From a virus: a stretch of 25,099 nucleotides of DNA. A program made the translations under genes and the position numbers. This document shows, piece after piece, positions 6,363 through 23,517 of this stretch (positions are counted from its first letter, which is position 1; every line of letters begins with the position of its first letter). The notes under the pieces were generated by a model. The model saw only the letters and a program-made list of their open reading frames with translations. It searched no databases and was not told where the DNA came from. The stretch lies in the IMG/VR virus record IMGVR_UViG_3300027708_000278, positions 1-25,099 of that record, one strand, 5' to 3'.

Positions 6363-6415
6363 GTTCTCCTCCCCGTAGTTGATAGGCTAATTATATCAGG
6401 TAGGGGGAGGAGAAC
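6363..6415. repeat. 12-bp inverted repeat flanking a promoter and covering the SD
   Basis: GTTCTCCTCCCC (6363-6374) and GGGGAGGAGAAC (6404-6415) are perfect complements with 29 bases between them. On the minus strand the downstream arm is the ribosome-binding site of the gene starting at 6359 and the spacer contains its promoter. Only transcripts that read through from upstream contain both arms. Confidence 0.8.
6390..6398 (-). promoter_or_regulatory. Extended -10 promoter
   Basis: TGATATAAT for the DUF6011-like gene at 5796-6359; predicted start near 6383, leader about 24 nt. Confidence 0.75.
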
Positions 6416-6423
6416 TCCAAACG

Positions 6424-6594
6424 TTACGCCCTTTGGGCCAGGAGACCCATAGTTACGCCTGCCAAGGCAAGAGTTAGTGCCTCTATCGGCCTCTCAGGGC
6501 GTGTGAAGGCCAGGATAAGCGCGAGCAGGGTAAATACCGTAGCACCTACGGCTGGCCACACCAAATCGCGTAGGCGTGAGAATAGATCTGGCAT
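6424..6594 (-). CDS. Small two-helix membrane protein
   Basis: A 56-residue protein with two hydrophobic segments, WPAVGATVFTLLALILAF (13-30) and ALTLALAGVTMGLLA (39-53), joined by a charged turn TRPERPIE. It starts 7 bases after the HTH gene that ends at 6601, with AAGTAGG as a weak ribosome-binding site, so translation is probably coupled. Last gene of a seven-gene operon from 8050. Size and topology would allow a holin-like or membrane-regulatory role, but there is no direct evidence. Confidence 0.75.
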   Translation of the reverse strand: MPDLFSRLRDLVWPAVGATVFTLLALILAFTRPERPIEALTLALAGVTMGLLAQRA

Positions 6595-6600
6595 GTTAAC

Positions 6601-6900
6601 CTACTTTACCGGGCGTGTTCGGCCCTTGAGGCGGGTTGAGGCATCACGAATGGTTGTTCCTGATGCGTCAATGAGCTTGCGAGCCTTACCGTAGGTAACG
6701 CCTAGTTCCTTAGCTACTTCGACGACTGGCATACCCTTTGCGTATAGCTGGGCAGCAGCTTGTGGTGTTACATCTGTCATGCTGTTTCCTTTCGTCATTT
6801 CGGCTGGCGGTTCTTCCGCAAGCCAGGCACGAGACCTCACGATGAGATCCCTTGCCTCGTTGAGTAACTGCAGCTGCGAGCTACCCAAAGTTATCGACAT
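6601..6900 (-). CDS. HTH DNA-binding protein with possible second start
   Basis: A 99-residue protein. Residues about 46-78 hold a resolvase or repressor-like helix-turn-helix (AAQLYAKGMPVVEVAKELGVTYGKARKLI) and the C-terminus is basic. ATG 6900 overlaps the stop of the zinc-ribbon gene (ATGTCGATAA), typical of coupling. However, an in-frame ATG at 6780 is preceded by GACGAAAGGAAACAGC, the leader found before many genes here. A 59-residue short form made of the HTH alone is therefore likely too. The extra N-terminus is an amphipathic helix (LQLLNEARDLIVRSRAWLAEE) that could mediate dimers. Confidence 0.78.
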   Translation of the reverse strand: MSITLGSSQLQLLNEARDLIVRSRAWLAEEPPAEMTKGNSMTDVTPQAAAQLYAKGMPVVEVAKELGVTYGKARKLIDASGTTIRDASTRLKGRTRPVK

Positions 6901-7055
6901 GTTGAACAGTAGTTTCCAACACGTATGTTTTTCATTGCGATGTCATAGACCTTGCCGCAATGATGACACGCTACCTTTATCAAGTCTCCGCGTTTAGGCT
7001 CACGCTTCTTAAGCTTAGGAATGTTTGGTAATGGAATCCTTATGGTGATAATCAT
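6891..7055 (-). CDS. Zinc-ribbon microprotein
   Basis: A 54-residue basic protein with CHHC at residues 30-33 and CSTC at 50-53, a four-ligand treble-clef or zinc-ribbon pattern, after a Lys/Pro-rich N-terminus. ATG 7055 overlaps the stop of the gene upstream by ATGA, and its own stop lies inside the start of the HTH gene at 6900. A nucleic-acid or protein-binding role is inferred from the fold only. Confidence 0.8.
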   Translation of the reverse strand: MIITIRIPLPNIPKLKKREPKRGDLIKVACHHCGKVYDIAMKNIRVGNYCSTCR

Positions 7056-7372
7056 TTTGTTTCATCGCCTCCTGGAGCTGTAGCCTTGAACGCACGGTAC
7101 GTAGCCGTATCAGCTGGGAGAAATCCATCGTCCGCGTGACATGAGAAACAGAGATACTCGTTGCGTCGATGCGACGGGTCACGAACTACCTTGTCATGTT
7201 TTCCGCATCGGTCGCAGATCGGGTCCTTTGGTTTAGTGCGAGCCCACTCGCGATAGCAGTAGGCACAGATCAAGTTATCAGCCGCGTTGTAGATAAGAAC
7301 GTTGTCTTCGTTGCACGTTACACATGTACCGTAGACATAGAGCTTGTCACGCTGTATGGTTCCTTGTGTCAT
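7052..7372 (-). CDS. Double zinc-ribbon protein
   Basis: A 106-residue protein with four CxxC pairs: CVTC (17-20) with CAYC (36-39), and CDRC near 53-56 with CFSC near 75-78. This makes two consecutive zinc ribbons. The second (CDRCGKHDKVVRDPSHRRNEYLCFSC) resembles small HNH-like or recombination-endonuclease zinc motifs, but no catalytic His-Asn-His set is clear. AGGATC lies before ATG 7372. Middle of the operon from promoter 8095-8103, with ATGA coupling to the next gene. Confidence 0.8.
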   Translation of the reverse strand: MTQGTIQRDKLYVYGTCVTCNEDNVLIYNAADNLICAYCYREWARTKPKDPICDRCGKHDKVVRDPSHRRNEYLCFSCHADDGFLPADTATYRAFKATAPGGDETK

Positions 7373-7407
7373 AATTAGATCCTAATCCTTTTACCTGAAC
7401 TTGTAAA

Positions 7408-7668
7408 CTAGTCTACTTGACTTTCTAGAACACGCATTTTTCGTGGTCCGTATTGTGAGGTAGGTAGTCCAATGTTAATAGATACCTGACAGTCGATGTA
7501 GTCGGTGTGTCGAGCTGAGATCCTGAGGTTACCCTTAGCCTTTAGTCCAAGGTTCACGAACTCGATGTCCTGTGGGTTGTAGATGTAGTGACCGCAGGAG
7601 ATGCAGACCTCAAACGTGTTGTCGTCTCTGCGACGAGGCACGCGCTCGTCCTTTGCTATGAACTTCAT
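7408..7668 (-). CDS. Small protein with one CxxC pair
   Basis: An 86-residue protein (MKFIAKDERVPRRRDDNTFEVCISCGHYIYNP...). CISC at 22-25 is the only close cysteine pair, with a single later Cys, so it may be a half zinc site or a redox pair. The C-terminal part is beta-rich. ATG 7668 overlaps the stop of the upstream membrane gene by ATGA. Function not recognised. Confidence 0.72.
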   Translation of the reverse strand: MKFIAKDERVPRRRDDNTFEVCISCGHYIYNPQDIEFVNLGLKAKGNLRISARHTDYIDCQVSINIGLPTSQYGPRKMRVLESQVD

Positions 7669-7820
7669 CGCTTGTCCTTAGGCTTTACCACGCCAAGGAT
7701 TGGCTGGATCTTAATAATTGACTTTCGGTACTGGTAGTACTTGTATCCAACGATGGAGGCAAGTGCCAGTGCCGCTACTACTAGGTGACCCCAGGTGAGG
7801 TCGAAGCTGACATGTATCAT
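7665..7820 (-). CDS. Single-pass membrane microprotein
   Basis: A 51-residue protein with a hydrophobic segment LTWGHLVVAALALASIVGY (8-26) followed by a basic tail KYYQYRKSIIK, which suggests N-out/C-in. Both ends overlap neighbours by ATGA (start 7820, stop inside start 7668), so its translation depends on coupling. Unknown function. Confidence 0.75.
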   Translation of the reverse strand: MIHVSFDLTWGHLVVAALALASIVGYKYYQYRKSIIKIQPILGVVKPKDKR

Positions 7821-8050
7821 TTGGTTCCTCTCAATGAACGCTCTGCGATTTCATCTAACGATGCTGCAAGTAAAAGGGCTGGGAAGCAGCCAACGATTGC
7901 TGATAGAACTGCTGCCGCTAAGCTAAGCCAGCGCGGTCCTGCTAGAAAAATCATTGCTGAGATGAAGAGCCATGAGGCTGCAAGTACTTTCATTCCCGCT
8001 GCGTAGCGGCGGAATCGGTAGACCTTGTCTGTCTTGTATGTAATCTTCAT
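7817..8050 (-). CDS. Two-helix membrane protein
   Basis: A 77-residue protein with two hydrophobic segments, VLAASWLFISAMIFLAG (22-38) and LSLAAAVLSAIVGCFPALLLAA (42-63), and basic N-terminal residues. ATG 8050 is chosen because GACGAAAGGA precedes it at the usual distance; an earlier in-frame ATG at 8071 lies within the leader. It heads a seven-gene operon down to 6424. Size and topology would fit a small holin or a membrane-associated anti-host protein, but neither can be shown. Confidence 0.75.
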   Translation of the reverse strand: MKITYKTDKVYRFRRYAAGMKVLAASWLFISAMIFLAGPRWLSLAAAVLSAIVGCFPALLLAASLDEIAERSLRGTK

Positions 8051-8094
8051 GTTAGTCCTTTCGTCATTCACCGTGGGGTTTCGGTGATAGGTTA

Positions 8095-8103
8095 ATTATA
8101 ACA
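8095..8103 (-). promoter_or_regulatory. Extended -10 promoter with 5' hairpin
   Basis: TGTTATAAT driving the operon 8050-6424. Predicted start near 8088; the transcript would begin with a CACCG/CGGTG hairpin (8069-8073 and 8082-8086) and continue into the ACGAAAGGA leader. Confidence 0.75.
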
Positions 8104-8109
8104 GGTAAA

Positions 8110-8316
8110 TCAGGCAGATGCTAGCAACTGAAGGGTTTCAGTTTCATTTAATTTTCGATAGTCTACCTTCGTGTAGGTATGAATCTGTTCAGTGACCTCG
8201 AGCTTGTTGATGGCTCCAGTAGTTCCTGTGACCAGTTGCTTCACGAACTCGGCTGAGTCAACGTGATACCCATAGGTGGTTCCGTTAACCGTGATTGCTA
8301 CTCCGTATGATTTCAT
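8110..8316 (-). CDS. Small protein of unknown function
   Basis: A 68-residue, beta-rich protein (MKSYGVAITVNGTTYGYHVDSAEFVKQLV...). ATG 8316 follows the leader ACGACGAAAGGA. It has no copy of the -10 motif in front; instead a hairpin with a UUCG loop lies between it and the gene ending at 8378. It is therefore probably read from the promoter at 8627-8635. Not recognised. Confidence 0.75.
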   Translation of the reverse strand: MKSYGVAITVNGTTYGYHVDSAEFVKQLVTGTTGAINKLEVTEQIHTYTKVDYRKLNETETLQLLASA

Positions 8317-8347
8317 TTATTTCCTTTCGTCGTTTTGGGTGGGGGAA

Positions 8348-8371
8348 GGCGGGGAGCCGAAGCTCCCCACC
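8348..8371 (-). terminator. GC-rich hairpin with UUCG tetraloop
   Basis: On the minus strand GGTGGGGAGC-TTCG-GCTCCCCGCC, 10 bp with one mismatch, and no T-run after it on that strand. It sits between two genes that share a promoter, so partial termination, processing or 3'-end protection are possible. On the plus strand CTTTT follows the stem. Confidence 0.6.
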
Positions 8372-8377
8372 CTTTTA

Positions 8378-8584
8378 CTAATCTTCGTCTTCTTGCTCTT
8401 CGTGGTTCAAGAAGTCTTCAATCGCTCCTTGGACCGCGTCACCGACCATCTCTGAAAGTCGGTCGAGCTGCTCATCGGTAAAGGTTACCTTTGGCTCATC
8501 GTCATTCATGTAGTTGGCCATTTCCTCAATCATGTCAACTGTTAGTACTGACTCAACTACCTTGTAGTCTTTGCTGTATGCCAT
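8378..8584 (-). CDS. Acidic small protein, paralogue of the one at 14409-14621
   Basis: A 68-residue, very acidic protein. YSKDYKVVESVLTVDMIEEMANY and FTDEQLDRLSEMVGDAVQ align with the protein at 14409-14621 (YSKDYKIINSSLTVDELEELTTY, FTNDQINELSNDIEEAIQ). The C-terminus is a run of Glu/Asp. ATG 8584 is chosen because GGAG lies before it and the promoter lies inside any longer form. Function unknown; acidic helices suggest a protein-binding or DNA-mimic type surface, which is speculative. Confidence 0.78.
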   Translation of the reverse strand: MAYSKDYKVVESVLTVDMIEEMANYMNDDEPKVTFTDEQLDRLSEMVGDAVQGAIEDFLNHEEQEDED

Positions 8585-8626
8585 TTTCGGATCTCCAATT
8601 CCCACGGCGTTTCCGTGTATAGGTTA

Positions 8627-8635
8627 ATTATAACA
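8627..8635 (-). promoter_or_regulatory. Extended -10 promoter with 5' hairpin
   Basis: TGTTATAAT; predicted start near 8620, so the RNA opens with CACGG/CCGTG (8603-8607, 8613-8617), 5 bp with a five-base loop, only three bases from the 5' end. Confidence 0.75.
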
Positions 8636-8655
8636 GGTAGGTGTCTAGAACCTGA

Positions 8656-8832
8656 CTAGCTCTTAGTTCCCCAGGTCACCAGGGTGATGACCTTGTCCGC
8701 AAGAAAGTTGCTACGGCGATAAGCTTCAGCCCAAGATTCGGCCTCAGCTTCTGAACGGCAGTACTGGTAGACGGTTTCCCCGCTACTCAAGGTGTAGTAA
8801 TACTTAGTTTGGTTTCCTGGTACATTTTTCAT
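8656..8832 (-). CDS. Small protein of unknown function
   Basis: A 58-residue protein (MKNVPGNQTKYYYTLSSGETVYQYCRSEAEAES...). The pattern of a short beta hairpin and then a helix (SEAEAESWAEAYRRSNF) with terminal strands fits a compact alpha/beta microprotein. ATG 8832 is chosen for GGAG at the right distance; its promoter lies upstream at 8864. Transcribed alone. Not recognised. Confidence 0.72.
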   Translation of the reverse strand: MKNVPGNQTKYYYTLSSGETVYQYCRSEAEAESWAEAYRRSNFLADKVITLVTWGTKS

Positions 8833-8863
8833 TTGGATCTCCAATCCGTTAGCGTATAAGCTA

Positions 8864-8872
8864 ATTATAACA
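8864..8872 (-). promoter_or_regulatory. Extended -10 promoter
   Basis: TGTTATAAT for the gene at 8656-8832; predicted start near 8857, leader about 25 nt with GGATTGGAG. Confidence 0.75.
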
Positions 8873-8878
8873 GGTAGG

Positions 8879-9058
8879 TTAGGACCTAGGCTTGCGCTCT
8901 GGACTTCGCCTGGAGATTTCACAGGTATCTGGTTTTATACCCTGAGACTTTAGCCAAGCCTTCGCCGCATCCTCGTTCATGAACTGCCCTACCCAGCTTC
9001 CGCTGGGGAGGAACACGTTCACAAGCTGATACAGCGTGTTGGTTTCCTTAGTACTCAT
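8879..9058 (-). CDS. Small protein of unknown function
   Basis: About 59 residues (MSTKETNTLYQLVNVFLPSGSWVGQFMNEDAAKAWLKSQGI...). The same strand-strand-helix plan as the neighbour at 8656-8832 (beta hairpin and then an acidic Ala-rich helix) suggests a similar fold, but the sequences are not clearly homologous. Two adjacent ATGs (9061, 9058) could start it; both lie inside the end of the 34-residue membrane gene, so translation is coupled. Confidence 0.7.
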   Translation of the reverse strand: MSTKETNTLYQLVNVFLPSGSWVGQFMNEDAAKAWLKSQGIKPDTCEISRRSPERKPRS

Positions 9059-9152
9059 CATCGCCAATGTGAATCGGGAACTTATTAGCAAATGAAACTA
9101 CTGCTACCGTACCAATGGTGCATGCTGCAACTATAATTAGAATTAGAAACAT
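9048..9152 (-). CDS. 34-residue single-pass membrane microprotein
   Basis: MFLILIIVAACTIGTVAVV forms one hydrophobic helix at the N-terminus, followed by SFANKFPIHIGDDEY. It starts one base after the stop of the gene at 9154, with GGAG in the end of that gene, and overlaps the next gene by 11 bases or more. Too short for most gene finders, but the coupling and the clean membrane segment support it. Unknown role. Confidence 0.7.
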   Translation of the reverse strand: MFLILIIVAACTIGTVAVVSFANKFPIHIGDDEY

Positions 9153-9153
9153 A

Positions 9154-9372
9154 TTACTCTCCTAGTCCGAACATCTCTGTCCAACATTTTGGGTGGTACC
9201 CAGTTTTTAATTGTTCACGCTTGGGTTTTGGCATCTCAGGGAATGCATCTTGAATGAGCATACCGCTTGTCCAAGCTTCATAACCTCGAGCATCAACCTC
9301 AAGGGAGTCTGATAAACCGCACCATGAACATGGTGGAGTTTCTACAAGATAGATTTCATTTTCCAGAGCCAT
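9154..9372 (-). CDS. Conserved actinophage small protein with Cys pairs
   Basis: A 72-residue protein: TPPCSWCGLSD at 12-22, a central AWTSGMLIQDAFPEM, and TGYHPKCW near 57-64. This arrangement (PPCxxCG...LIQxAxP...GxHPxCW) is a family I recognise from actinobacteriophages; the three Cys and the His could hold zinc. ATG 9372 has the ACGACGAAAGGA leader. It heads a three-gene unit (9372-8879). Confidence 0.8.
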   Translation of the reverse strand: MALENEIYLVETPPCSWCGLSDSLEVDARGYEAWTSGMLIQDAFPEMPKPKREQLKTGYHPKCWTEMFGLGE

Positions 9373-9398
9373 GATTATCCTTTCGTCGTTATAGGGTA

Positions 9399-9407
9399 AT
9401 TATAACA
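9399..9407 (-). promoter_or_regulatory. Extended -10 promoter
   Basis: TGTTATAAT; predicted start near 9392, leader about 20 nt and almost entirely ACGACGAAAGGA plus spacer, one of the shortest leaders that still has an SD. Confidence 0.75.
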
Positions 9408-9413
9408 GGTACC

Positions 9414-10010
9414 CTACTCGTCTTTTAGCTGAGCTAGGACCGTGAACGGTCCACCTGAGCCGGAGTCTAGTTTAGCTCCAATGGCTAGGGATTCCTTTAC
9501 TATTTCTTTAGCCGTATCAACGGTGAGCTTTCCCTTAGCTGGAAGATACGCATAGAGAGCTCCAATGGCGTAGTCACCACCAGTTCCCATACCGTATAGA
9601 CCAGTCGCATCTTTAACCCAGGCGTAATCCTCGCCGAGCTCGTAGATAGTTCCATTGACAACAACAAGAATCATTGAACCTTGTGATGCAGCTTCTTTTG
9701 TTTCTGGTCCAAGAGTTCTATCCGCGTATCCGTGGTCCTCGAAACATTTACGAAGAGCTGGCACGAAATCATTTGTAATGAATGCGTCGAGTTCACGACC
9801 GTATAAACCACTTGCGTCTGGTGGTGTGAACGTGTGTTCAAGAATGTTTATTGCACGCATGTCGCCTGCAGCACCAAATAAGTATTCGTCGTTAGCTACA
9901 ATTTTTCCGTAACCCTTTGACATCGTATAGATACGACCTTCATCGGTGATACGTGAATCTGAACCTACGACTGCCCAGCCTGGTCCCTGCACAGCAATTA
10001 TTGTAGTCAT
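9414..10010 (-). CDS. Ntn hydrolase, proteasome beta/HslV-like
   Basis: A 198-residue protein resembling HslV and 20S proteasome beta subunits, the threonine proteases. The sequence starts M-TTIIAVQGPGWAVVGSDSRIT. If Met is removed, Thr2 becomes the N-terminal nucleophile, D18 takes the position of Asp17, and K36 (GYGKIV) aligns with Lys33. FGAAGDMRA near 45-53 matches the conserved glycine loop, and GMGTGGDYAIGALYA near 140-154 matches the GSGxxxAxxAxxA helix. No propeptide is seen. It lacks the standard promoter; GAGAGGA precedes ATG 10010 and an inverted repeat lies upstream. No HslU-like unfoldase adjoins it; the nearest ATPase in the window is at 19554. Possible targets are host or phage proteins. 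Confidence 0.82.
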   Translation of the reverse strand: MTTIIAVQGPGWAVVGSDSRITDEGRIYTMSKGYGKIVANDEYLFGAAGDMRAINILEHTFTPPDASGLYGRELDAFITNDFVPALRKCFEDHGYADRTLGPETKEAASQGSMILVVVNGTIYELGEDYAWVKDATGLYGMGTGGDYAIGALYAYLPAKGKLTVDTAKEIVKESLAIGAKLDSGSGGPFTVLAQLKDE

Positions 10011-10023
10011 TGGCGTCCTCTCA

Positions 10024-10055
10024 GCGGTAGGTTCATTCTATCCTATACCTACCGC
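10024..10055. repeat. 9-bp inverted repeat in Ntn hydrolase leader
   Basis: GCGGTAGGT and ACCTACCGC, perfect arms with a 14-base centre, occupy the place where other genes have the promoter motif. A TAGAAT-like -10 (minus strand) lies within the centre. Operator or hairpin; it is 13 bases before the start codon. Confidence 0.55.
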
Positions 10056-10072
10056 CAGAGAACAGGGTCTTA

Positions 10073-10408: not shown

Positions 10409-10438
10409 TTGGTGTCCTTTCGTCGTTTGGTAAGGCTA

Positions 10439-10447
10439 ATTATATCA
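10439..10447 (-). promoter_or_regulatory. Extended -10 promoter that doubles as stop codon
   Basis: TGATATAAT for the gene at 10073-10408. Its TGA (10447-10445) is the stop codon of the upstream zinc-ribbon microprotein. Predicted start near 10432. Confidence 0.78.
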
Positions 10448-10588
10448 GGTAGGTTGCTTGAATCCTAGGTTGCTCAGGTGAGAATCATAGGTGTCCTTTG
10501 ATTCTTTAAAGCACGGGTCACAGGTTACCTTACTCAAACTAAAGCTTTTGTTCTTTAACCGCAGGTGACAGCGGACACAGGTTATCAT
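10445..10588 (-). CDS. Zinc-ribbon microprotein
   Basis: A 47-residue protein with CVRC (4-7) and CDPC (23-26) separated by a basic stretch, a compact zinc ribbon, then an unstructured tail. ATG 10588 overlaps the stop of the upstream gene as TAATG. Its own stop is the TGA of the next promoter. Missed by a length cut-off but well supported by overlaps and zinc ligands. Confidence 0.78.
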   Translation of the reverse strand: MITCVRCHLRLKNKSFSLSKVTCDPCFKESKDTYDSHLSNLGFKQPT

Positions 10589-11391: not shown

Positions 11392-11392
11392 C

Positions 11393-11743: not shown

Positions 11744-11774
11744 TTCCTTCTCCTATCGTTTCGTCGTTGGTATA

Positions 11775-11783
11775 ATTATATCA
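11775..11783 (-). promoter_or_regulatory. Extended -10 promoter
   Basis: TGATATAAT for the five-gene unit 11743-10445; predicted start near 11768. Confidence 0.75.
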
Positions 11784-11793
11784 GGTAGGTACT

Positions 11794-11913: not shown

Positions 11914-11919
11914 AGGATA

Positions 11920-11928
11920 ATTATATCA
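11920..11928 (-). promoter_or_regulatory. Extended -10 promoter, leaderless start
   Basis: TGATATAAT with exactly six bases before ATG 11913. Confidence 0.75.
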
Positions 11929-11944
11929 GGTAGGTGTAGAGAAA

Positions 11945-11970
11945 GGTACCCTACTTGTGAGTAGGGTACC
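11945..11970 (-). terminator. Hairpin terminator
   Basis: Perfect 10-bp stem GGTACCCTAC/GTAGGGTACC, six-base loop, followed on the minus strand by TTTCTCT. It lies 13 bases beyond the stop at 11983. Confidence 0.75.
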
Positions 11971-12321: not shown

Positions 12322-12365
12322 TTGGAATCCAATCTATCTTACTAACCCTTGTGGTTAATAAGATA

Positions 12366-12374
12366 ATTATATCA
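12366..12374 (-). promoter_or_regulatory. Extended -10 promoter with 5' hairpin
   Basis: TGATATAAT, preceded by ATA instead of the usual CC. Predicted start near 12359; TAACC/GGTTA pair over a five-base loop within the first 20 nt of RNA. The stretch 12375-12443 beyond it is AT-rich and holds no gene. Confidence 0.7.
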
Positions 12375-12443
12375 TATAGAACCCTAAAAATCAGGTAAAT
12401 AGAGTAAAATAGAGTGGTCAGTTTTATGACTTGACCAGGTCAT

Positions 12444-12725: not shown

Positions 12726-12769
12726 TTGCATTCCTTCCGTCGTTTCACCGGATATTCGGTGATGGGATA

Positions 12770-12778
12770 ATTATATCA
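12770..12778 (-). promoter_or_regulatory. Extended -10 promoter that doubles as stop codon
   Basis: TGATATAAT; its TGA ends the upstream gene at 12776. Predicted start near 12763, followed at once by a CACCG/CGGTG hairpin (12746-12750, 12757-12761). Confidence 0.78.
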
Positions 12779-13189
12779 GGCAGGTTGGTTGAGAGCGCCC
12801 ATAATGTCTTCCCTTGAGAAAACTTTTACACTTGATAAGGCACCGCGTTCAATTTCCTTTGAACCGTATGCCCAGCTCGTTGCGTCCCCAAAGAACGAGG
12901 CACTGTGGTCAGCACCAGGAGACCAGAGCTTCCTCGTGGTTAGCCGCGTATCAATTTCCCACACGTACACATAGTCATGGGGAACTAGGTTCACGATTGG
13001 ACCGATCTCTGAATCCATCGTGCCGTGCACGTGGTCAAGGACGCGGAACCACATGAAGGTGAGAGCGTGGGCTACTGTTTCAGCCGCATAGATTTCTCCC
13101 CAGTTAGATTTCAATCCCTCTGCGTTTATGTCACCAAACACGCACTCAGGCGCACAGTGATAAAGATATCTTGGCATCTTGTTACTCAT
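12776..13189 (-). CDS. Possible ADP-ribosyltransferase-fold protein
   Basis: A 137-residue protein. PRYLYHCAPECVFGDINAEGLKSNWGEIYAAETVAHALTF (residues 6-45) follows the pattern YHxT-like / IxxxGL / G.IYLA.....A..F that is common in small ADP-ribosyltransferase-like and KptA/DarT-like folds, and VYVWEIDTRLTTRKLWSP continues it. A clear catalytic Glu cannot be fixed by eye, so the call is tentative. It overlaps the basic gene upstream by 8 bases and stops inside the next promoter. Targets could be host proteins or nucleic acid, if active. Confidence 0.6.
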   Translation of the reverse strand: MSNKMPRYLYHCAPECVFGDINAEGLKSNWGEIYAAETVAHALTFMWFRVLDHVHGTMDSEIGPIVNLVPHDYVYVWEIDTRLTTRKLWSPGADHSASFFGDATSWAYGSKEIERGALSSVKVFSREDIMGALNQPA

Positions 13190-13340: not shown

Positions 13341-13346
13341 AAGCTA

Positions 13347-13355
13347 ATTATAACA
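13347..13355 (-). promoter_or_regulatory. Extended -10 promoter, leaderless start
   Basis: TGTTATAAT with exactly six bases before ATG 13340. Confidence 0.75.
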
Positions 13356-13367
13356 GGTGGGCCAAAT

Positions 13368-13739: not shown

Positions 13740-13910
13740 TTAATGCACCGCAGGCGACTTGCTTGCGGACTGATCTATTATAACAAGGTTCTTCCTGAAA
13801 AGTACAATCAGGAGAAGTCTGCCGTAATAGCCAATGATAAATCTAAGAGCACCGATCTCGCCGTCACTGTAGCGGCCCGTGGTCTCCATCATTCCTTCGT
13901 GTAGACTCAT
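13740..13910 (-). CDS. Single-pass membrane protein
   Basis: A 56-residue protein with a hydrophobic segment ALRFIIGYYGRLLLIVLF (20-37) and a basic flank RK. ATG 13910 overlaps the upstream stop as TAATG. Last of four coupled genes from 14621. Its end overlaps the leader of the gene at 13716. Unknown role. Confidence 0.7.
   Translation of the reverse strand: MSLHEGMMETTGRYSDGEIGALRFIIGYYGRLLLIVLFRKNLVIIDQSASKSPAVH
13777..13785 (-). promoter_or_regulatory. Extended -10 promoter inside a coding region
   Basis: TGTTATAAT for the gene at 13417-13716; predicted start near 13770. Unlike most copies it lies within the preceding gene (13740-13910), where it encodes part of the protein. Confidence 0.7.
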
Positions 13911-14621: not shown

Positions 14622-14654
14622 TTCGGATCCCTTCGTCGTTGGGTTGATAGGCTA

Positions 14655-14663
14655 ATTATAACA
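14655..14663 (-). promoter_or_regulatory. Extended -10 promoter
   Basis: TGTTATAAT for the operon 14621-13740; predicted start near 14648. Confidence 0.75.
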
Positions 14664-14669
14664 GGTGCC

Positions 14670-15600: not shown

Positions 15601-15628
15601 TTTGTTTCCTTCCGTCGTTGTTAGGATA

Positions 15629-15637
15629 ATTATATCA
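15629..15637 (-). promoter_or_regulatory. Extended -10 promoter whose hexamer holds a stop codon
   Basis: TGATATAAT; the TAA inside TATAAT (15632-15630) is the stop codon of the upstream gene, whose last residues Leu-Ile are also encoded by the motif. Predicted start near 15622. Confidence 0.78.
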
Positions 15638-15881
15638 GGTGGGTTTTACTGATCTCCTGTGCCATCCGCTTTAGCTCCTCGTCACTTGTCGGGTTTGCCG
15701 CAAGAACGGTAAGCGAGTGGACGAGCATCTTTAGCTCGTTCCCATCCAGTTCTATCACGTACTCATTAAGAAGTTTGTCGACCTGGTCTGCAAACTTCTC
15801 CGGGTTATCACGTGTAGCTCTAGCCAGTGTCACTAAAGCCACGGCGGCAGTGAAGCCTGCCGGGTGTTCGAGCTTTGTCAT
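15630..15881 (-). CDS. Helical small protein of unknown function
   Basis: An 83-residue, all-helical-looking protein (EHPAGFTAAVALVTLARATRDNPEKFADQVDKLLNEY...). ATG 15881 overlaps the upstream stop as TAATG; an alternative ATG at 15899 would add six residues. It ends inside the next promoter's TATAAT. Not recognised. Confidence 0.72.
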   Translation of the reverse strand: MTKLEHPAGFTAAVALVTLARATRDNPEKFADQVDKLLNEYVIELDGNELKMLVHSLTVLAANPTSDEELKRMAQEISKTHLI

Positions 15882-16162: not shown

Positions 16163-16191
16163 ATGGATCTCCAATCCGGTTCGTTAGGATA

Positions 16192-16200
16192 ATTATATCA
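16192..16200 (-). promoter_or_regulatory. Extended -10 promoter
   Basis: TGATATAAT for genes 16162-15630; predicted start near 16185, leader about 23 nt. Confidence 0.75.
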
Positions 16201-16205
16201 GGTGC

Positions 16206-16828: not shown

Positions 16829-16846
16829 ATTTAGTTTGTTAGGATA

Positions 16847-16855
16847 ATTATATCA
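16847..16855 (-). promoter_or_regulatory. Extended -10 promoter that doubles as stop codon
   Basis: TGATATAAT; TGA (16855-16853) is the stop of the gene upstream. Predicted start near 16840, 12 nt before the ATG of the interrupted gene; it can also feed the gene at 16523. Confidence 0.78.
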
Positions 16856-17122
16856 GGTCGGCATACTATTGGAGTCGCCTGGAGTAATACGAAGCATGAT
16901 GTTGCCGTTGTGTGCATGATACTGACTCAACACGTCGTAAAGAAGATTTGCGATGTCTGGCTTTAGCTCGTACTCCGCGGAGCCTTCATCACTGGTGTAT
17001 AGGAACGTGTTGGCAGAGATTGGAAACTGCTGGCTGCCGCTTCGAATGAAGACAACACGCTCATCGTGCATTCGCTCATAGCCTTGTTCAAGGCCGTCAA
17101 GATTTATGTTCTGGTCTGACAT
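16853..17122 (-). CDS. Small protein of unknown function
   Basis: An 89-residue protein (MSDQNINLDGLEQGYERMHDERVVFIRSGSQQFPISANTFLY...). Mixed strands, then a helix PDIANLLYDVLSQYHAHNG and a last strand. ATG 17122 follows CGAAAGG. No promoter motif; a terminator-like hairpin at 17151-17173 separates it from the gene upstream, so expression probably depends on readthrough. Not recognised. Confidence 0.72.
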   Translation of the reverse strand: MSDQNINLDGLEQGYERMHDERVVFIRSGSQQFPISANTFLYTSDEGSAEYELKPDIANLLYDVLSQYHAHNGNIMLRITPGDSNSMPT

Positions 17123-17539: not shown

Positions 17540-17592
17540 TTGGTGTCCCTTCGTCATTTTCACCGGAACCGGTTGGTTTCGATGTTAGGATA

Positions 17593-17601
17593 ATTATATC
17601 A
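17593..17601 (-). promoter_or_regulatory. Extended -10 promoter
   Basis: TGATATAAT for the gene at 17189-17539; predicted start near 17586, leader about 47 nt with a possible 5' stem CATCG/CGGTG. Confidence 0.75.
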
Positions 17602-17608
17602 GGTAGGG

Positions 17609-19449: not shown

Positions 19450-19483
19450 TTGGTTTCCTTCCGTCATTTGTACTGATGGGATA

Positions 19484-19492
19484 ATTATATCA
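19484..19492 (-). promoter_or_regulatory. Extended -10 promoter
   Basis: TGATATAAT for the VWA gene; predicted start near 19477. Confidence 0.75.
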
Positions 19493-19505
19493 GGTGCCCC
19501 AGTTT

Positions 19506-19533
19506 GGAGGGTAGGCACCCATACCTACCCTCC
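19506..19533 (-). terminator. Perfect 10-bp hairpin after the AAA gene
   Basis: GGAGGGTAGG/CCTACCCTCC with an eight-base loop, 21 bases past the stop at 19554 and just before the next promoter. No T-run. Confidence 0.6.
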
Positions 19534-19553
19534 AGGGCAGCCAAGGTCTAGCC

Positions 19554-20534
19554 CTAGATCTTGGCTGGTCGGCAGTCTTCGCCGAACGCCCTAGTGAACA
19601 CGTCCGCAACGACGGGGCGGTCGAGTTCAGGCGACGCGGCGAGTAAGTTCGCGATTGCGAACTTGGTGCCGAAGTCTTTTGCAATGTCGCGGAAGGCAAG
19701 GAGCTCACGCATTTGTGGAGCCCATGAGGTTTCACCTGCCAGTTGCTTCTTTGCAAGATTTTGTGCAGCGGTAACGATTGTTGTTGGAGCACCAAGCTTA
19801 CGAGCAAGTGTCCAGTCAGTGGTCATCTCTGCTTGAAGTACAAAGCGAGATAGAAGAGCTTCCGATAGTCGAACTCCGGGAGCGTTTGGGTTGGTTGCTG
19901 CGATTACGTAGAACCCATCTTTTGCTTTGACAGTTCCACGCTCTGGGTTTGCAGTGACTGTGTACTCCTTGGTTCCGTCCATCAGAGAGTAAGTTCCTGC
20001 TAGAACCTTTGGATCAACGAGACCGACCTCGTCGATGAAGAGTGGCTTACCTTCCTCGGCAGCACGAAGTAGTGGACCATCGACCCACTCGTATCCACCT
20101 GAAGGTGTTTGGATGTATCCGCCAATGAAGTCTGAAAGTTCAGTGTCTCCTGTACCGAGAACTGTTTCAACCTCATCGAGGAAGGCTGCTTGGACAAGTG
20201 CTGTCTTACCGCAACCGGGTGAACCGTAGATAAGAATTGGTTGGTTATTAGTGCGCGCCTTGCGAAGAACCTGCACGTCATCGTGCTCGCCCCACTTACG
20301 TGCAAAGTAGTACTCGCCATTTGGTCGAATGTACTTCTCTTCACCAAGCATTGCGTCAGCAGAGATCACAGGGACAACTTTCTTTGGAGCGGCAGTTCGG
20401 GCAGTTGCTCTTCCAGGTGCTGGCATGAGCGCATCAAGCTTCGAACCTAGTTCGGAGTTGACGCTCTGGGTTGTGACGCCTAGTAAGGCATCTGTCAATC
20501 CAGGGTACAACTTATCGTACTCTGAAGTTTCCAT
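19554..20534 (-). CDS. MoxR/CobS-type AAA+ ATPase
   Basis: A 326-residue AAA+ protein. Walker A GSPGCGKT at 104-111, a DFIGGYI loop near 136-142 and LRAAEEGKPLFIDEV with Walker B at 165-169, sensor 1 IAATNPNAPGVRLSEALLSRF at 211-231 with the arginine finger region, all in MoxR/CobS order. It precedes the VWA protein, its presumed partner. ATG 20534 sits seven bases after AAAGGA, as for other genes; ATG 20537 is adjacent. It could also supply unfolding power to the Ntn hydrolase at 9414, but that is speculation. Confidence 0.9.
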   Translation of the reverse strand: METSEYDKLYPGLTDALLGVTTQSVNSELGSKLDALMPAPGRATARTAAPKKVVPVISADAMLGEEKYIRPNGEYYFARKWGEHDDVQVLRKARTNNQPILIYGSPGCGKTALVQAAFLDEVETVLGTGDTELSDFIGGYIQTPSGGYEWVDGPLLRAAEEGKPLFIDEVGLVDPKVLAGTYSLMDGTKEYTVTANPERGTVKAKDGFYVIAATNPNAPGVRLSEALLSRFVLQAEMTTDWTLARKLGAPTTIVTAAQNLAKKQLAGETSWAPQMRELLAFRDIAKDFGTKFAIANLLAASPELDRPVVADVFTRAFGEDCRPAKI

Positions 20535-20575
20535 CATTACTTCCTTTCGTCGTTTGGCTGGGTGGCCGTAGGATA

Positions 20576-20584
20576 ATTATATCA
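20576..20584 (-). promoter_or_regulatory. Extended -10 promoter that doubles as stop codon
   Basis: TGATATAAT for the AAA gene; TGA (20584-20582) ends the upstream gene. Predicted start near 20569. Confidence 0.78.
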
Positions 20585-21043
20585 GGCGAATAGAGACTCG
20601 CCGAAGTTTAGAGCGCGGCGGCAACGAGTGATGCGACCGAGAATTTTGTAAGGAGTCTTACCTTGGCGGATATCTTGCATATCCTCAGGGGTTACCTCAA
20701 CTGCAATTGGTTGCTTGTACAACGTGTAACCTTTTGCGATGAGCTGGTTGAACAGGTTGTTTGTAAATGAGATGCGATCTGGGAACGTAGCTTTTGCGTG
20801 GTCAGTTCCAAGTTGTAGAATTGCCCCAGATGATGAGTCAACTTCACTGATAGTACTTGAAGCGATTGCGCGCCATGATCTACGTGGTGTTGCCGCAGAG
20901 ATACTTCTACGGTAGCATGTCATTGGTACTGTCTTACCTGCAATGGACGTTAGTCCCTCAGGGGTAATGATAACCTGAGTTGTTTGGGAACCGGACCTCA
21001 ATTCGAGATACAGCGCCTTTCCGACAACTGATGTGTTTGTCAT
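20582..21043 (-). CDS. Protein of unknown function upstream of the AAA/VWA pair
   Basis: A 153-residue protein with strands at the N-terminus (ALYLELRSGSQTTQVIITPEGLTSI), a Ser/Arg-rich middle and TDHAKATFPDRISFTNNLFNQLIAKGYTLYKQPIAVEV. The motif NLFNQLIAKGY with a preceding acidic region suggests a compact alpha/beta fold. Not recognised. Its stop is shared with the AAA promoter. ATG 21043 follows ACGGAAAGGA. Confidence 0.75.
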   Translation of the reverse strand: MTNTSVVGKALYLELRSGSQTTQVIITPEGLTSIAGKTVPMTCYRRSISAATPRRSWRAIASSTISEVDSSSGAILQLGTDHAKATFPDRISFTNNLFNQLIAKGYTLYKQPIAVEVTPEDMQDIRQGKTPYKILGRITRCRRALNFGESLFA

Positions 21044-21082
21044 GGGTGTGTCCTTTCCGTCGTTTGGTGGTGCGTTGGGATA

Positions 21083-21091
21083 ATTATATCA
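21083..21091 (-). promoter_or_regulatory. Extended -10 promoter
   Basis: TGATATAAT for the gene at 20582-21043; predicted start near 21076. Confidence 0.75.
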
Positions 21092-21093
21092 GG

Positions 21094-21255
21094 TCAGTCT
21101 TCAGAGTCAATAGGGTAAAGGTAATTGCCTAGGTCGATGTCGAGTCCTGTTTTGATTAGGACCTCGCCGTTCTCATAGACAACCTTTGCTGTGGGAAGTC
21201 TCTCCGCCATGTACTCGCGAAGATGATCAAGAGTTTCTACCTCGGCGATCTTCAT
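21094..21255 (-). CDS. Small acidic protein
   Basis: A 53-residue protein MKIAEVETLDHLREYMAERL...NYLYPIDSED with a helix followed by short strands. ATG 21255 overlaps the upstream stop (ATGA). Ends three bases before the next promoter. Not recognised. Confidence 0.72.
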   Translation of the reverse strand: MKIAEVETLDHLREYMAERLPTAKVVYENGEVLIKTGLDIDLGNYLYPIDSED

Positions 21256-21548
21256 GCGTTCACCGTAACGTAGACGTCCTTGCGACGAAGTGCCGCGGAT
21301 GTTGTGACGAACCCTGGAGAGCATGGACACATTGAGCATCCTGCGTTTCGGTTCCAGCTTAGTTGAATGTCCTCATAGCCAAGTTCAGCTAGAGCTGCAG
21401 TCGCGTATGCGCGCCACACCTTGATTGGACGGTTGCGTCGATTTTGTAAGTTCTCAAGAATTGTTTCATCAGCGATTGAAACGTAGATGCGTCCTTTGTC
21501 CGCACGCTCGTTCCAGCTGCGTGTTCTTACTTGGGTGTTCAGGTTCAT
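21252..21548 (-). CDS. Conserved actinophage Cys-rich protein (CSMCPCSPGF)
   Basis: A 98-residue protein. RIYVSIADETILENLQNRRNRP, then LSWNRNAGCSMCPCSPGFV near 63-81, a motif I recognise from small actinobacteriophage proteins (KAGCSMCPCSPGFI). Three Cys in six residues suggest metal binding. Function unknown. ATG 21548 has leader ACGACGGAAGGA and promoter 21585-21593. Confidence 0.82.
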   Translation of the reverse strand: MNLNTQVRTRSWNERADKGRIYVSIADETILENLQNRRNRPIKVWRAYATAALAELGYEDIQLSWNRNAGCSMCPCSPGFVTTSAALRRKDVYVTVNA

Positions 21549-21584
21549 GGGCTTTTCCTTCCGTCGTTTGTTTGGTACTGGATA

Positions 21585-21593
21585 ATTATATCA
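21585..21593 (-). promoter_or_regulatory. Extended -10 promoter whose hexamer holds a stop codon
   Basis: TGATATAAT; TAA in the hexamer (21588-21586) ends the upstream 51-residue gene. Predicted start near 21578. Confidence 0.78.
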
Positions 21594-21741
21594 GGCTGGG
21601 CTTCTCCATAAGGTCGTTACCCACGAGTATTGAAGTAATGAACTCGATCTTTTCATAGTCAGCTCTATTTCCTTCAACGACATAGACTATGTCCTTTAGG
21701 ATAGCTTCGTAGATCTCTTCCCAATTTCTATCTGTTGGCAT
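21586..21741 (-). CDS. 51-residue protein with structured leader
   Basis: MPTDRNWEEIYEAILKDIVYVVEGNRADYEKIEFITSILVGNDLMEKPSLI, mainly helical and acidic; not recognised. ATG 21741 follows GAAGGAAGGA. The last residues and the stop are encoded by the next promoter. Its mRNA would start with an 80-nt structured element (21767-21845), unusual for a gene this small. Confidence 0.77.
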   Translation of the reverse strand: MPTDRNWEEIYEAILKDIVYVVEGNRADYEKIEFITSILVGNDLMEKPSLI

Positions 21742-21766
21742 ACGTTATCCTTCCTTCAATGTTAGG

Positions 21767-21845
21767 TATACACGGGGCACCGGGATTGTTTCCGCCCCGC
21801 ATGCGTTCCGAGCGTTCAGGTGACCACCGGTGGACCCCGTGTATA
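21767..21845 (-). ncRNA. Structured 5' leader RNA
   Basis: TATACACGGGG (21767-21777) pairs with CCCCGTGTATA (21835-21845), and CACCGG (21778-21783) continues with CCGGTG (21827-21832), giving about 17 bp with a two-base bulge. Inside are a CGCTC/GGGCG stem and a GCATGC palindrome. The predicted transcript start (21844) falls at the base of this helix. It could be a regulatory leader, a riboswitch of unknown type or a small RNA; I do not recognise a known class. Confidence 0.6.
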
Positions 21846-21850
21846 AGCTA

Positions 21851-21859
21851 ATTATATCA
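21851..21859 (-). promoter_or_regulatory. Extended -10 promoter for structured leader
   Basis: TGATATAAT; predicted start 21844, the first base of the structured leader. Confidence 0.77.
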
Positions 21860-21861
21860 GG

Positions 21862-22521
21862 TCAGGCTAGAAGCTTTTTGAACTGTTCTAGCTTGGCATT
21901 AGCCTCGTTCAGTTGATTCTGAATGTCAGCCGTACGTTCCGCAACTAGCTTTTCGATTAGGAAATCGAGCGCCGCGTTTGTTTCGGTCATTGACCGATCG
22001 ACTCCAACAGCTTCCTTTGTGGTAGCTCTTGGCTTATACTTCTTTGTGCTTGCCTCTTTAGGCTTGCGAGGTGAGTCGACACCTTTGAGAATGATTCCGG
22101 GGACAACCTCAACCTCGGTACGAGGTGGAACCACTGAGTATGTTGAGTAGAGAACGGCAGGTTTGTTTAGAGTAACCTTCGCGCCGTTACCTCGGAGTGT
22201 TCGCTCCTCGGCTGTCTCCTTGCGAGTGAATAGTTTCTTGTCTGCAACAAGTGCGTCCAATCCGTATCGAACTCGAGGTTCGTTGTAATCCGTACCTAGT
22301 ACCTGGTTAAGGAAGGCCGTGATCTCTGGTACTGTCATTGGCTGGCCGTGTTCAGCGACCGCTGCCAATGTCAGATCACGAAGCGTCATTGCCGCATCGT
22401 GTCGCAACATCTGCACTTTCATAAATGCAGGATTGTTTGGGTTACCGCGTCTGACAGACGTCGACGCACTATCCTCGGTTACCGTCCGAGTGATGCGTGC
22501 GATTTCTCGTAGTTTCGTCAT
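21862..22521 (-). CDS. Winged-helix-like DNA-binding protein, leaderless
   Basis: A 219-residue protein. Residues about 46-102 look like a winged helix (LRDLTLAAVAEHGQPMTVPEITAFLNQVL, then EPRVRYGLDALVADKKLFTR). A basic linker follows (PRKPKEASTKKYKPR), and 187-219 is a coiled coil (LVAERTADIQNQLNEANAKLEQFKKLL), suggesting dimers or oligomers. ATG 22521 is one base after the predicted +1, so the mRNA is essentially leaderless. As a likely regulator with a separate translation mode it is a candidate controller of the accessory block. Confidence 0.82.
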   Translation of the reverse strand: MTKLREIARITRTVTEDSASTSVRRGNPNNPAFMKVQMLRHDAAMTLRDLTLAAVAEHGQPMTVPEITAFLNQVLGTDYNEPRVRYGLDALVADKKLFTRKETAEERTLRGNGAKVTLNKPAVLYSTYSVVPPRTEVEVVPGIILKGVDSPRKPKEASTKKYKPRATTKEAVGVDRSMTETNAALDFLIEKLVAERTADIQNQLNEANAKLEQFKKLLA

Positions 22522-22528
22522 TGGTGCA

Positions 22529-22537
22529 ATTATAACA
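22529..22537 (-). promoter_or_regulatory. Extended -10 promoter, leaderless start
   Basis: TGTTATAAT with seven bases before ATG 22521. Confidence 0.75.
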
Positions 22538-22754
22538 GGCGGGTATGACATTTGCGGCATATGAAACACCTAGTGCGAGACTATTTTTTAGAGGAACTCC
22601 CTGTCAAGGTTTCCAAGCTCGATGCCGTCCTCTACACGGAAGTTAGCTGGCTAGAGCCGAGCTAGCCGCCTCGTGCCGCTATGTCCGATTTGTCCGTTAT
22701 AAGCTGGATTCGGGGAACAGATCTGTACTTCCACACGGAAGTTCTAGCTAGCTG
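22538..22754. other. Noncoding gap with CTAG-rich hairpins
   Basis: About 215 bases without a credible gene. It holds AACTTCCGTGT twice (minus strand, near 22733 and 22641), the first as a hairpin ACTTCC-GTGT-GGAAGT, a GGCTAG/CTAGCC hairpin at 22649-22667, and five CTAG sites. GCTGGCTAG and GAGCTAGCC are shared with the noncoding region at 3343-3488. A TTGACA near 22602 (minus strand) has no convincing -10. Confidence 0.55.
22649..22667 (-). terminator. GGCTAG/CTAGCC hairpin
   Basis: Six-bp perfect stem with a seven-base loop, about 90 bases past the lysin stop. No T-run; termination uncertain. Confidence 0.35.
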
Positions 22755-23501
22755 CTAGCTGTCGATCGAGAACAAGCCCGTCTCACGTCCAAGCCGTTTG
22801 AGTGATGGGACGTCGAATCGTCCGTGCCCGTCAATGTATCCAATGCTACGTTGCCACCTAGCAAACGCAGACGTGGTTTCCCCGTCTACCTTGCCCGTGA
22901 TGCTATGCAGGCCGGTCTTTAGTACGAGCGCCCGTTGTACTAGCTCGACGCTAGCGTGCCGCTTGCCCGTCTGTAGATGAGCGAGCCTGATCTCCTTGCC
23001 CGTCATATCCGTGCCGCCTTGTTGGACAGGCCTGAACGTTGGCCGTCCGAATCCTAGTACCTCGTGCCTGTACCGTACACGCCGATACACGCCGTCATTG
23101 AGCTGGCTGCCCTTGGCAAGCCCGCTAGCTACCTGGCCTTCAATTGTTTCAACCAGTCCGTGCCGTTGCCAATCCTGCGTGCCCGTGACGATTCCGACAT
23201 GGGGCATCCCGAAGTTCTCATCCGTTGGAAAGGTAAGGAACACGATGTCACCCGGCCTAGGCCGTGCATGCCACCGTCTCTTGTAGATGAACTCCGCCAA
23301 GCCCGCCGGTGAATATACGCAGGCCGGTAGTTCCATGCCCGCCTCACGTGCCACCACATCGATGTACGCGCCCGACCAAATACTTCCCTGGTAACCGACC
23401 GTGCCGCCGTAGATAGACTGCATGCCGGCCCGTGCCGTGTACCCGAGGTGTTGTGTTGCCGTCTCTAGGAACCGTGCCTGCAGCTCGTTGTTTGTGCGCA
23501 T
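22755..23501 (-). CDS. CHAP/NlpC-like lysin with peptidoglycan-binding domain, leaderless
   Basis: A 248-residue protein. N-terminal domain (1-150) has the CHAP-like order GYQGSIWSGAYIDVVAREAG, PRPGDIVFLTF and FGMPHVGIVTG with H101. The position normally held by the catalytic Cys is Ser43 (WSG for WCG), as in some actinophage relatives, so amidase/endopeptidase activity is uncertain. Residues 175-245 resemble a PG_binding_1 domain (ASVELVQRALVLKTGLHSITGKVDGETTSAFARWQRSIGY). ATG 23501 is one base after predicted +1, hence leaderless. GC-rich composition with many ACGGGC words differs from the accessory block. Confidence 0.82.
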   Translation of the reverse strand: MRTNNELQARFLETATQHLGYTARAGMQSIYGGTVGYQGSIWSGAYIDVVAREAGMELPACVYSPAGLAEFIYKRRWHARPRPGDIVFLTFPTDENFGMPHVGIVTGTQDWQRHGLVETIEGQVASGLAKGSQLNDGVYRRVRYRHEVLGFGRPTFRPVQQGGTDMTGKEIRLAHLQTGKRHASVELVQRALVLKTGLHSITGKVDGETTSAFARWQRSIGYIDGHGRFDVPSLKRLGRETGLFSIDS

Positions 23502-23508
23502 CAGGCTA

Positions 23509-23517
23509 ATTATATCA
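23509..23517 (-). promoter_or_regulatory. Extended -10 promoter, leaderless start and stop codon
   Basis: TGATATAAT for the lysin. TGA (23517-23515) ends the gene upstream, and seven bases separate the hexamer from ATG 23501, so stop, promoter and start fit in 19 bases. Confidence 0.78.

Follow-up and report, generated by a model that had tools for sequence, protein, structure and literature searches.

The uncultured virus record IMGVR_UViG_3300027708_000278 was analysed over a stretch of 25,099 bases (hereafter the window), which carries a terminase gene at its left end and a long leftward block of small genes. Across this block a near-identical repeat built on an extended -10 promoter recurs ahead of nearly all the genes, forming an array, and at the head of the block lies the gene of REG (21862..22521, minus strand), a protein of 219 amino acids (aa) whose predicted structure combines a winged helix with a long C-terminal helix; this protein is our candidate reader of the sequences flanking the repeats. 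The block also encodes an AAA ATPase and, adjoining it, a protein that matches VWA (CoxE-like) weakly (17665-20537, minus strand) and an HslV/proteasome-like peptidase (9414-10010, minus strand), the latter being present in 14 of the 26 related contigs with arrays. Two contigs, one of 44 kb (G001) and one of 17 kb, are 99.7-99.9% identical to the window over the compared stretches (G001 99.7-99.8%). Of the named genomes found, Actinomycetia phage DSL-LC01 (OQ999401) is the nearest; it is a circular 129-kb metagenome assembly in which the order AAA, VWA, HslV-like protease and terminase is the same as in the window, and its host was predicted as Actinomycetia (PMC10611076). Genes for WhiB, expected of actinobacterial phages, occur in 14 of 15 records, and no close relative of the AAA protein was found in bacterial genomes. 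Judged by its relatives, the window is part of the genome, about 130 kb long, of an uncultured freshwater phage that is probably actinobacterial.

On its minus strand the window holds 25 copies of the hexamer TATAAT, 24 of them within 6,388-23,520, and each of these 24 has TG at -15/-14, the TGn of an extended -10 promoter. The consensus reads ACCTG(A/T)TATAATTA(T/G)CC(T)A, with CCTG in 22 copies, ACCTG in 17 and TA directly after the hexamer in 22; the conserved positions span -18 to about +2, and a weak CC is seen further out, at -21/-20. First-order Markov simulation yielded a mean of 0.24 and a maximum of 2 occurrences of TGNTATAAT per strand over 200 runs. The 14-mer ACCTGWTATAATTA, searched on both strands at up to three mismatches, was found 29 times against 2.86 expected, a count that none of the shuffles reached; exact matches number 17 on the minus strand, none on the plus strand and none for the pattern read backward, and all 24 window matches at up to two mismatches contain TATAAT. 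No column exceeds 0.2 bit from -58 to -23, so the array has no -35 element, and pairs of -35 and -10 elements in 6000-25099 are not in excess (14, compared with 16.9 in shuffled sequence). An earlier note, drawn up from the letters of the window alone, had described 24 near-identical extended -10 promoters in this span, without a shared -35 and with conserved bases beyond the sigma contact. Our counts bear out each of these points, the 24 copies including two weaker ones at 12364-12377 (ATATG) and 13775-13788 (CCTTG...AG), and they recover the two outlying copies at 2412-2425 (minus strand, divergent, CGTG) and 3587-3600 (plus strand, one mismatch). Its proposal of one dispersed regulon of extended -10 promoters is likewise supported: in G001, all 24 copies of TGNTATAAT (both strands) fall within 24,824-44,003, and the initial 24.8 kb are free of them. 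Over 23 sites compared at positions -13 and -4, T stands at -4 in 12 of the 16 TGA copies and in none of the 7 TGT copies.

The sites keep a register to gene starts. The ATG of an open reading frame (ORF) of at least 35 aa follows within 45 nucleotides (nt) of the hexamer at 21 of the 24 copies, against 31% for positions in the span, a count ahead of starts that the earlier note had proposed. Of the remaining three hexamers, one has its ATG at 109 nt, one precedes a GTG-start ORF (13775-13788) and one has no ORF within 130 nt (16845-16858). The hexamer mostly lies 26-44 nt ahead of the ATG; a second, leaderless spacing, with the ATG 6 or 7 nt after the hexamer, is found at 11918, 13345, 22527 and 23507 and also at 2412. 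Across 32 contigs, which include the window and DSL-LC01 and were dereplicated from 46 with seed words chosen by hand for each contig, 656 sites have an ATG at 6 nt in 42 cases and at 7 nt in 18, and all other distances from 0 to 15 nt together account for 20, so that 60 of 80 ATGs lie at 6-7 nt. We repeated the counts without nine of the 32 matrices that had drifted, defined as having more than 15% of their sites on the opposite strand (L088, L092, L099, L100, L108, L110, L111, L152 and L153), and obtained 31 ATGs at 6 nt and 14 at 7 nt versus 14 elsewhere (485 sites, 23 contigs). Opposite-strand sites total 103, of which 9 have an ATG within 15 nt, 3 of those at 6 nt. This peak at 6-7 nt points to leaderless mRNAs that would start at the A of AUG, which places the start site in silico, and on the sequence evidence the array sites are very probably real promoters.

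From left to right on the minus strand, the sites of the block begin with an exact ACCTGATATAATTA at 6388..6401, whose hexamer is followed after 30 nt by the ATG of gene 5796-6359. The same sequence recurs at 10437..10450 (gene 10073-10408), 11773..11786 (gene 11393-11743), 15627..15640 (gene 15454-15600), 16190..16203 and 17591..17604, and ACCTGTTATAATTA is present at 8093..8106, 8625..8638, 8862..8875, 9397..9410 (gene 9154-9372) and 14653..14666 (gene 14409-14621). The form GCCTGATATAATTA precedes genes 12483-12731 (site at 12768..12781) and 21252-21548 (21583..21596), and the two weaker copies are ATATGATATAATTA at 12364..12377 (gene 11983-12321) and CCTTGTTATAATAG at 13775..13788, upstream of the GTG-start ORF 13417-13716. 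The AAA ATPase gene (19554-20537) has its promoter at 20574..20587, and the gene 20582-21043 at 21081..21094; the promoter of the VWA gene lies at 19482..19495, within the ORF listed as 17665-19518, the start used lying downstream of it. Leaderless promoters are located at 11918..11931 (ATG 6 nt after the hexamer, 39-aa ORF), 13345..13358 (6 nt, gene 13182-13340), 22527..22540 (7 nt), which is the REG promoter and has a divergent downstream flank, GCCTGTTATAATTG, and 23507..23520 (7 nt), ahead of an endolysin-like gene with a weak CHAP match (22755-23501). Left of the span, the divergent copy ACGTGATATAATAT at 2412..2425 (minus strand) stands 6 nt before the ATG of gene 1835-2407, which encodes a helix-turn-helix protein, and the only rightward copy, GCCTGTTATAATTA at 3587..3600 (plus strand), is found before ORF 3629-3871. 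Directly preceding this rightward promoter is a stretch without a listed gene (3041-3590), which contains 10-base tandem repeats (GGTAACCTTT-like, 3289-3328) and palindromes.

Two further minus-strand sites may lie ahead of structured RNA. The promoter at 16845..16858 has no ORF of at least 35 aa within 130 nt and may drive a structured RNA or a long leader; the predicted fold of the 307 nt after it (16540-16846) beats that of every one of 100 shuffles (z -2.9), and these 307 nt end in a 14-bp hairpin shortly ahead of the next gene, making this stretch, by its predicted folding, a candidate structured RNA or leader. The promoter at 21849..21862 precedes ORF 21586-21741 with a 109-nt, probably structured leader (21741-21850), in which ACACGGGG...CCCCGUGU form a long predicted stem (z -2.0, 6 of 200 shuffles as good). 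This leader had no match in Rfam, where the search gave two matches, both far below the gathering scores.

To follow the array beyond the window, we searched a viral collection for loci around the AAA gene and took the 80 best of the 119 obtained. In many of the 80, the corresponding block has a -10 array biased to one strand, and its flanks, specific to each genome, are what we call dialects. Among 14 long records, 9 have TGNTATAAT 12-25 times on one strand and 0-3 times on the other, with 0-4 occurrences in backward controls; in G010, the two strands hold 22 and 1. Block sites scoring above the best reversed-sequence score number 18-59 per record (window 24, G001 22, G002 19, G003 23, G004 18, G005 20, G008 26, G009 59, G011 29, G012 19, DSL-LC01 35), and in G006 and G007 site refinement yielded other words only. 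Six cultured Microbacterium and Gordonia phages reached via the AAA gene (about 41 kb each) have 0-2 copies of TGNTATAAT per strand and no CCTGNTATAAT. The dialects fall into three classes. Class I, to which the window-like forms belong, has (A)CCTG(A/T)TATAAT, or ACATG instead of ACCTG in some, followed by TATCCTA, AGTACTA, TAACTTA or TAGAA. Class II mostly has CTA(A/G)(A/G)G-NNNN-TATAAT, examples being GATTCTAAAGaTGTTATAATaGAATCA of DSL-LC01, AATCTAgGGATTGTATAAT of L103, TTCCAGAG-tTTa-TATAAT of L092 and L089 with its TAAAAT-like core; several class II dialects have neither TGn nor a -35. Class III (L152-L154) has TTTGTC about 12 nt ahead of (GG)TATAAT, and elements resembling TTTGTC were seen in L152-L154, L143, L144 and L158/L159 some 12 nt before the -10, which is the spacing of the T4 MotA box; of these, L143, L144 and L158/L159 have no REG match.

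Within a genome the flanks change in concert. The VWA promoter could be found in all 32 dereplicated contigs, and its flank (18 positions, hexamer excluded) is more similar to the other copies of its own genome than to its orthologues (mean identity 0.627 versus 0.468), and 31 of the 32 genomes individually show their own copies to be closer. When the nine drifted contigs are left out, the values are 0.649 and 0.455 (own closer in 23/23), and within class II alone 0.671 and 0.480 (8/8). A second comparison lies within a single genome: in DSL-LC01, the promoters of the block read GATTCTAAAGaTGTTATAAT, in the dialect TCTAAAGaTGTTATAAT, whereas those of the thymidylate kinase and pyrimidine-dimer glycosylase genes read ACCTGTTATAAT. 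This difference suggests that the flank marks a regulon and does not merely suit the polymerase of the host. In class I, flanks of the AGTACTA type or near it occur on separate backbone branches (L085/86, L107/117, L108/112/114 and L127/133), interspersed with branches that have TAAnC-type flanks. An apparent swap of REG and dialect in L127/L133 was discarded; it came from a weak backbone tree, in which the VWA part was a short wrong stretch, and disappeared with 1,339 columns.

The REG family tracks the array. For this count, 56 of the 80 loci, those with at least 4.5 kb upstream of AAA, were reduced to 38 contigs at 3% AAA distance, all of which contain the AAA and VWA genes. REG is present in 26 of 26 contigs with arrays, in none of the 9 without and in none of the 3 that are unclear; likewise, the 10 long array genomes that were read fully contain it, and G006 and G007 do not. 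Array status was set by eye: L088 was scored as having an array though the script reported none, L140, L149, L155 and L157 were scored as array-less despite 6-15 script-listed sites (A-rich, or few), and L143, L144, L158 and L159 were classed as unclear. Among the window ORFs of at least 50 aa on the block strand that half or more of the array contigs contain, REG alone splits the contigs perfectly, the next best being a 59-aa ORF at the window edge (25 of 26 array contigs and 1 of 9 array-less ones). Of the 25 loci shown, 24 have an array site no more than 90 nt from the start of REG (the matrix of L088 being unspecific), which points to autoregulation of REG. The REG gene of DSL-LC01, annotated there as hypothetical, has a promoter that keeps the CTAAAG flank beside an altered hexamer, TATAGT, as if the flank mattered by itself.

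Sequence comparison places REG in no described family: searches of PHROG and of PDB sequences gave nothing, no Pfam hit passed the cut-off, and a tblastn search of 50,697 phage records at E up to 1, which is insensitive to remote homology, returned DSL-LC01 only. Its predicted structure (mean predicted local distance difference test score, pLDDT, 78.4; predicted template modelling score 0.53) contains a confident winged helix within residues 31-126, followed by the long C-terminal helix. Residues 31-110 have pLDDT means of 89-97 and form, in the model, a helix-turn-helix with a beta wing. The closest comparisons are to the Zur chain 3mwm (Z 10.3, root-mean-square deviation 1.2 over 70 residues) and to several PadR/LmrR chains (Z about 9), and the best Foldseek E-value is only 8.5e-3. 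The model thus shows a winged-helix fold, by which no family is assigned.

Where REG is missing, classical -35/-10 promoters abound in the block. In 27 loci with REG (516 kb), TTGACA-16..18-TANNNT occurs 5 times on the coding strand and 2 times on the other, compared with 342 and 11 for TGNTATAAT; in 9 loci without REG (188 kb), the relation is reversed, with 43 and 3 of the TTGACA type and 1 and 0 of TGNTATAAT. L139 is the only REG-less locus in which the TTGACA-type promoters lack strand bias (2 and 2). A different kind of repeat was noticed in the REG-less L148 (14,055 bases), where TGCTACTAA occurs 23 times and its complement TTAGTAGCA 17 times, dispersed in both orientations, and L149 has one copy of this type in the VWA upstream region.

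Other candidate readers were also considered. No match to Sigma70_r2 was found in the 15 records, in a search in which 10 of 14 controls were detected, and the lack of a phage sigma region 2 fits host sigma-A as a reader. A search for a single-subunit RNA polymerase gave no match, nor did its controls. WhiB does not track the array, the 14 records that encode it including the array-less G006, G007 and G013, and was rejected. So were dyad operators: dyad symmetry reached p<0.05 in 5 of 32 dialects, where about 2 are expected, and the lack of general symmetry argues against a plain dimer operator. As to the reader, the earlier note had left the choice between a host sigma factor and a modified polymerase. 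The first part agrees with the sigma search; taken together, the genome-specific concerted flanks and the co-occurrence of array and winged-helix protein make host sigma alone a probably incomplete explanation.

We therefore favour, at about even chances, a reading in which the repeats are promoters whose extended -10 is read by host sigma-A and whose flanks are read by REG, acting as an activator that replaces the -35 contacts. The host sigma-A RNA polymerase would recognise TGn-TATAAT without a -35 and, judging from the sequence, would start transcription at the conserved A, which follows the hexamer by about 7 nt. A second, phage-specific signal would lie in the flanks (about -22 to -13 and -6 to +2), marking one gene block, and we infer that REG reads this signal together with the polymerase. 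Standing in for the -35 contacts, REG would work like T4 MotA, to which it would be unrelated, and it would also control its own gene. On this reading any change in the flanks would call for a matching change in REG, and the lineage-specific dialects would result. That REG would activate is favoured by the absence of -35 elements where REG is present, by some dialects that lack TGn as well, by asymmetric sites oriented like the genes and by the fact that dyads are not general.

Several findings weigh against this interpretation, and some of them speak for a rival in which host sigma-A alone would read the promoters, the flanks being tuned to the polymerase of each phage's host through discriminator and upstream -10 contacts, with REG as an inherited neighbour. 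This is a serious alternative that we nevertheless consider rather doubtful. Consensus extended -10 promoters work unaided and need no activator. In the backbone tree (1,339 columns), class I and class II are each set apart by a single branch; the dialect classes follow the tree, so common descent explains much, and as we read the trees, it is enough to assume that array and REG were gained or lost jointly about two times. When only class I is considered, own-genome copies are little closer than orthologues (0.637 versus 0.586; 13 of 15 genomes with own copies closer). Genomes with REG lack TTGAC-type promoters throughout, not only in the block, which makes a host- or polymerase-wide cause possible, and T4 early promoters, read by the host polymerase, also have extra consensus beyond the sigma contacts (PMC2988021). 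Other points concern REG and its activator role more directly. There is no conserved element at -30 in the window. L143, L144 and L159 have -10-type arrays and no REG match, L144 containing TGNTATAAT 13 times on the plus and 0 times on the minus strand; in these three unclear loci together, TTGACA-type promoters number 22 and 1 on the two strands and TGNTATAAT 15 and 0. Distances between REG sequences correlate with distances between dialects, given AAA (Mantel partial r 0.420, p 0.0002; 0.379 if REG is extracted like the other ORFs), but higher values were obtained for the 153-aa protein 20582-21043 (0.616), for a 95-aa ORF, 10893-11180, in 19 contigs (0.486) and for VWA (0.470), and the value for REG given the 153-aa protein falls to 0.017. 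Three ORFs rank above REG at 0.420 and five at 0.379, one of them a frame overlapping the VWA and AAA genes. Since these tests do not single out REG, we do not use the correlation as evidence for it. Against host sigma-A as sole reader stand the block promoters and the two replication and repair promoters of DSL-LC01, which differ in their flanks and are presumably read by the same polymerase, the dialects that lack both TGn and a -35, and the clean division of REG between array and array-less contigs.

REG might instead be a repressor with the flanked -10 as its operator, in a dispersed regulon like that of the cluster A mycobacteriophages in which genes are silenced singly. Such a repressor would suit the position of the conserved stretch, centred near the -10, where a bound protein would block the polymerase, as well as the predicted winged helix with a long C-terminal helix that could dimerise; moreover, stoperators are a known many-site motif that varies between relatives along with its repressor (PMC6550527). 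The sites are asymmetric, however, and point with the genes, dyads are not general, as counted above, and a repressor gives no reason for the lack of -35 elements in loci that have REG; we regard it as unlikely. Finally, recombination between short repeats could homogenise the copies, or spread cassettes of promoter and gene, with no selection by a protein. The greater similarity of own-genome copies in nearly all genomes would follow from this, but similarity drops sharply at about -22 and +2 with the register fixed, whereas recombination tracts should bring neighbouring sequence along, which renders this explanation very improbable. With the activator reading kept in front, REG is, on sequence grounds, a good candidate for the protein that would read the flanks.

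If REG is an activator, a phage protein would here take over the role of the -35 outside the T4-type phages, where a 2010 review knew of no sigma appropriation (PMC2988021). More broadly, and with more hesitation than conviction, we suggest that freshwater actinobacterial phages may have evolved a sigma appropriation of their own, unrelated to that of T4, in which a winged-helix protein would replace -35 recognition at about 20-60 promoters and drift with them into dialects that could be used as private regulatory codes. Some 20-60 near-identical promoters changing in concert amount to a natural experiment on coevolution between a protein and its many sites, for which the relatives supply matched pairs of promoters and regulators. 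The analysis also offers a specific candidate reader for a group of uncultured phages whose transcription programme our literature searches did not find described; these searches returned no description of this array, most subscription papers lying outside their reach, and the main text of the DSL-LC01 paper does not contain the word "promoter" (PMC10611076).

Among known systems, the middle promoters of T4 are similar in that a phage element and an activator take the place of the sigma -35 contacts (PMC2988021; for the array, the activator is REG as proposed here). The same source counts nearly 60 of them, with a strong host -10 and with TGn in about half. They differ in that the MotA box is centred at -30, 12+-1 bp from the -10 (PMC2988021), whereas the array flanks abut the -10 and only class III relatives have a TTTGTC-like element, some 12 nt further upstream. 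T4 early promoters share a consensus that reaches past the sigma contacts (PMC2988021), but they have UP and -35 elements, and the array has no -35. The stoperators of cluster A phages and their immunity repressor resemble the array in numbering up to 30 sites per genome, with motifs that vary along with the repressor; they have a 13-bp core and stop elongation (PMC6550527), whereas the array site contains the -10 hexamer and sits just ahead of gene starts.

In cluster K phages, SAS and ESAS repeats likewise precede many non-structural genes, mostly in one orientation, and the ESAS consensus differs between genomes (PMC3203893, PMC11373665). According to the same papers, the 13-bp SAS lies 3-9 bp before the start and overlaps the ribosome-binding site, and the ESAS contains -35/-10 hexamers and a 17-bp inverted repeat (PMC3203893, PMC11373665); in contrast, the array has neither a -35 nor a general inverted repeat, and its hexamer mostly lies 26-44 nt before the ATG. 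The named relative DSL-LC01 has the same block order, a REG gene and an array of its own with 35 block sites, in the different dialect TCTAAAGaTGTTATAAT. T4 middle promoters, stoperators and SAS/ESAS thus share parts of the anatomy, and each departs from the array in at least one defining feature that we tested. The array itself is best described as a dispersed phage promoter regulon that combines a lineage-specific signal with a candidate phage-encoded reader.

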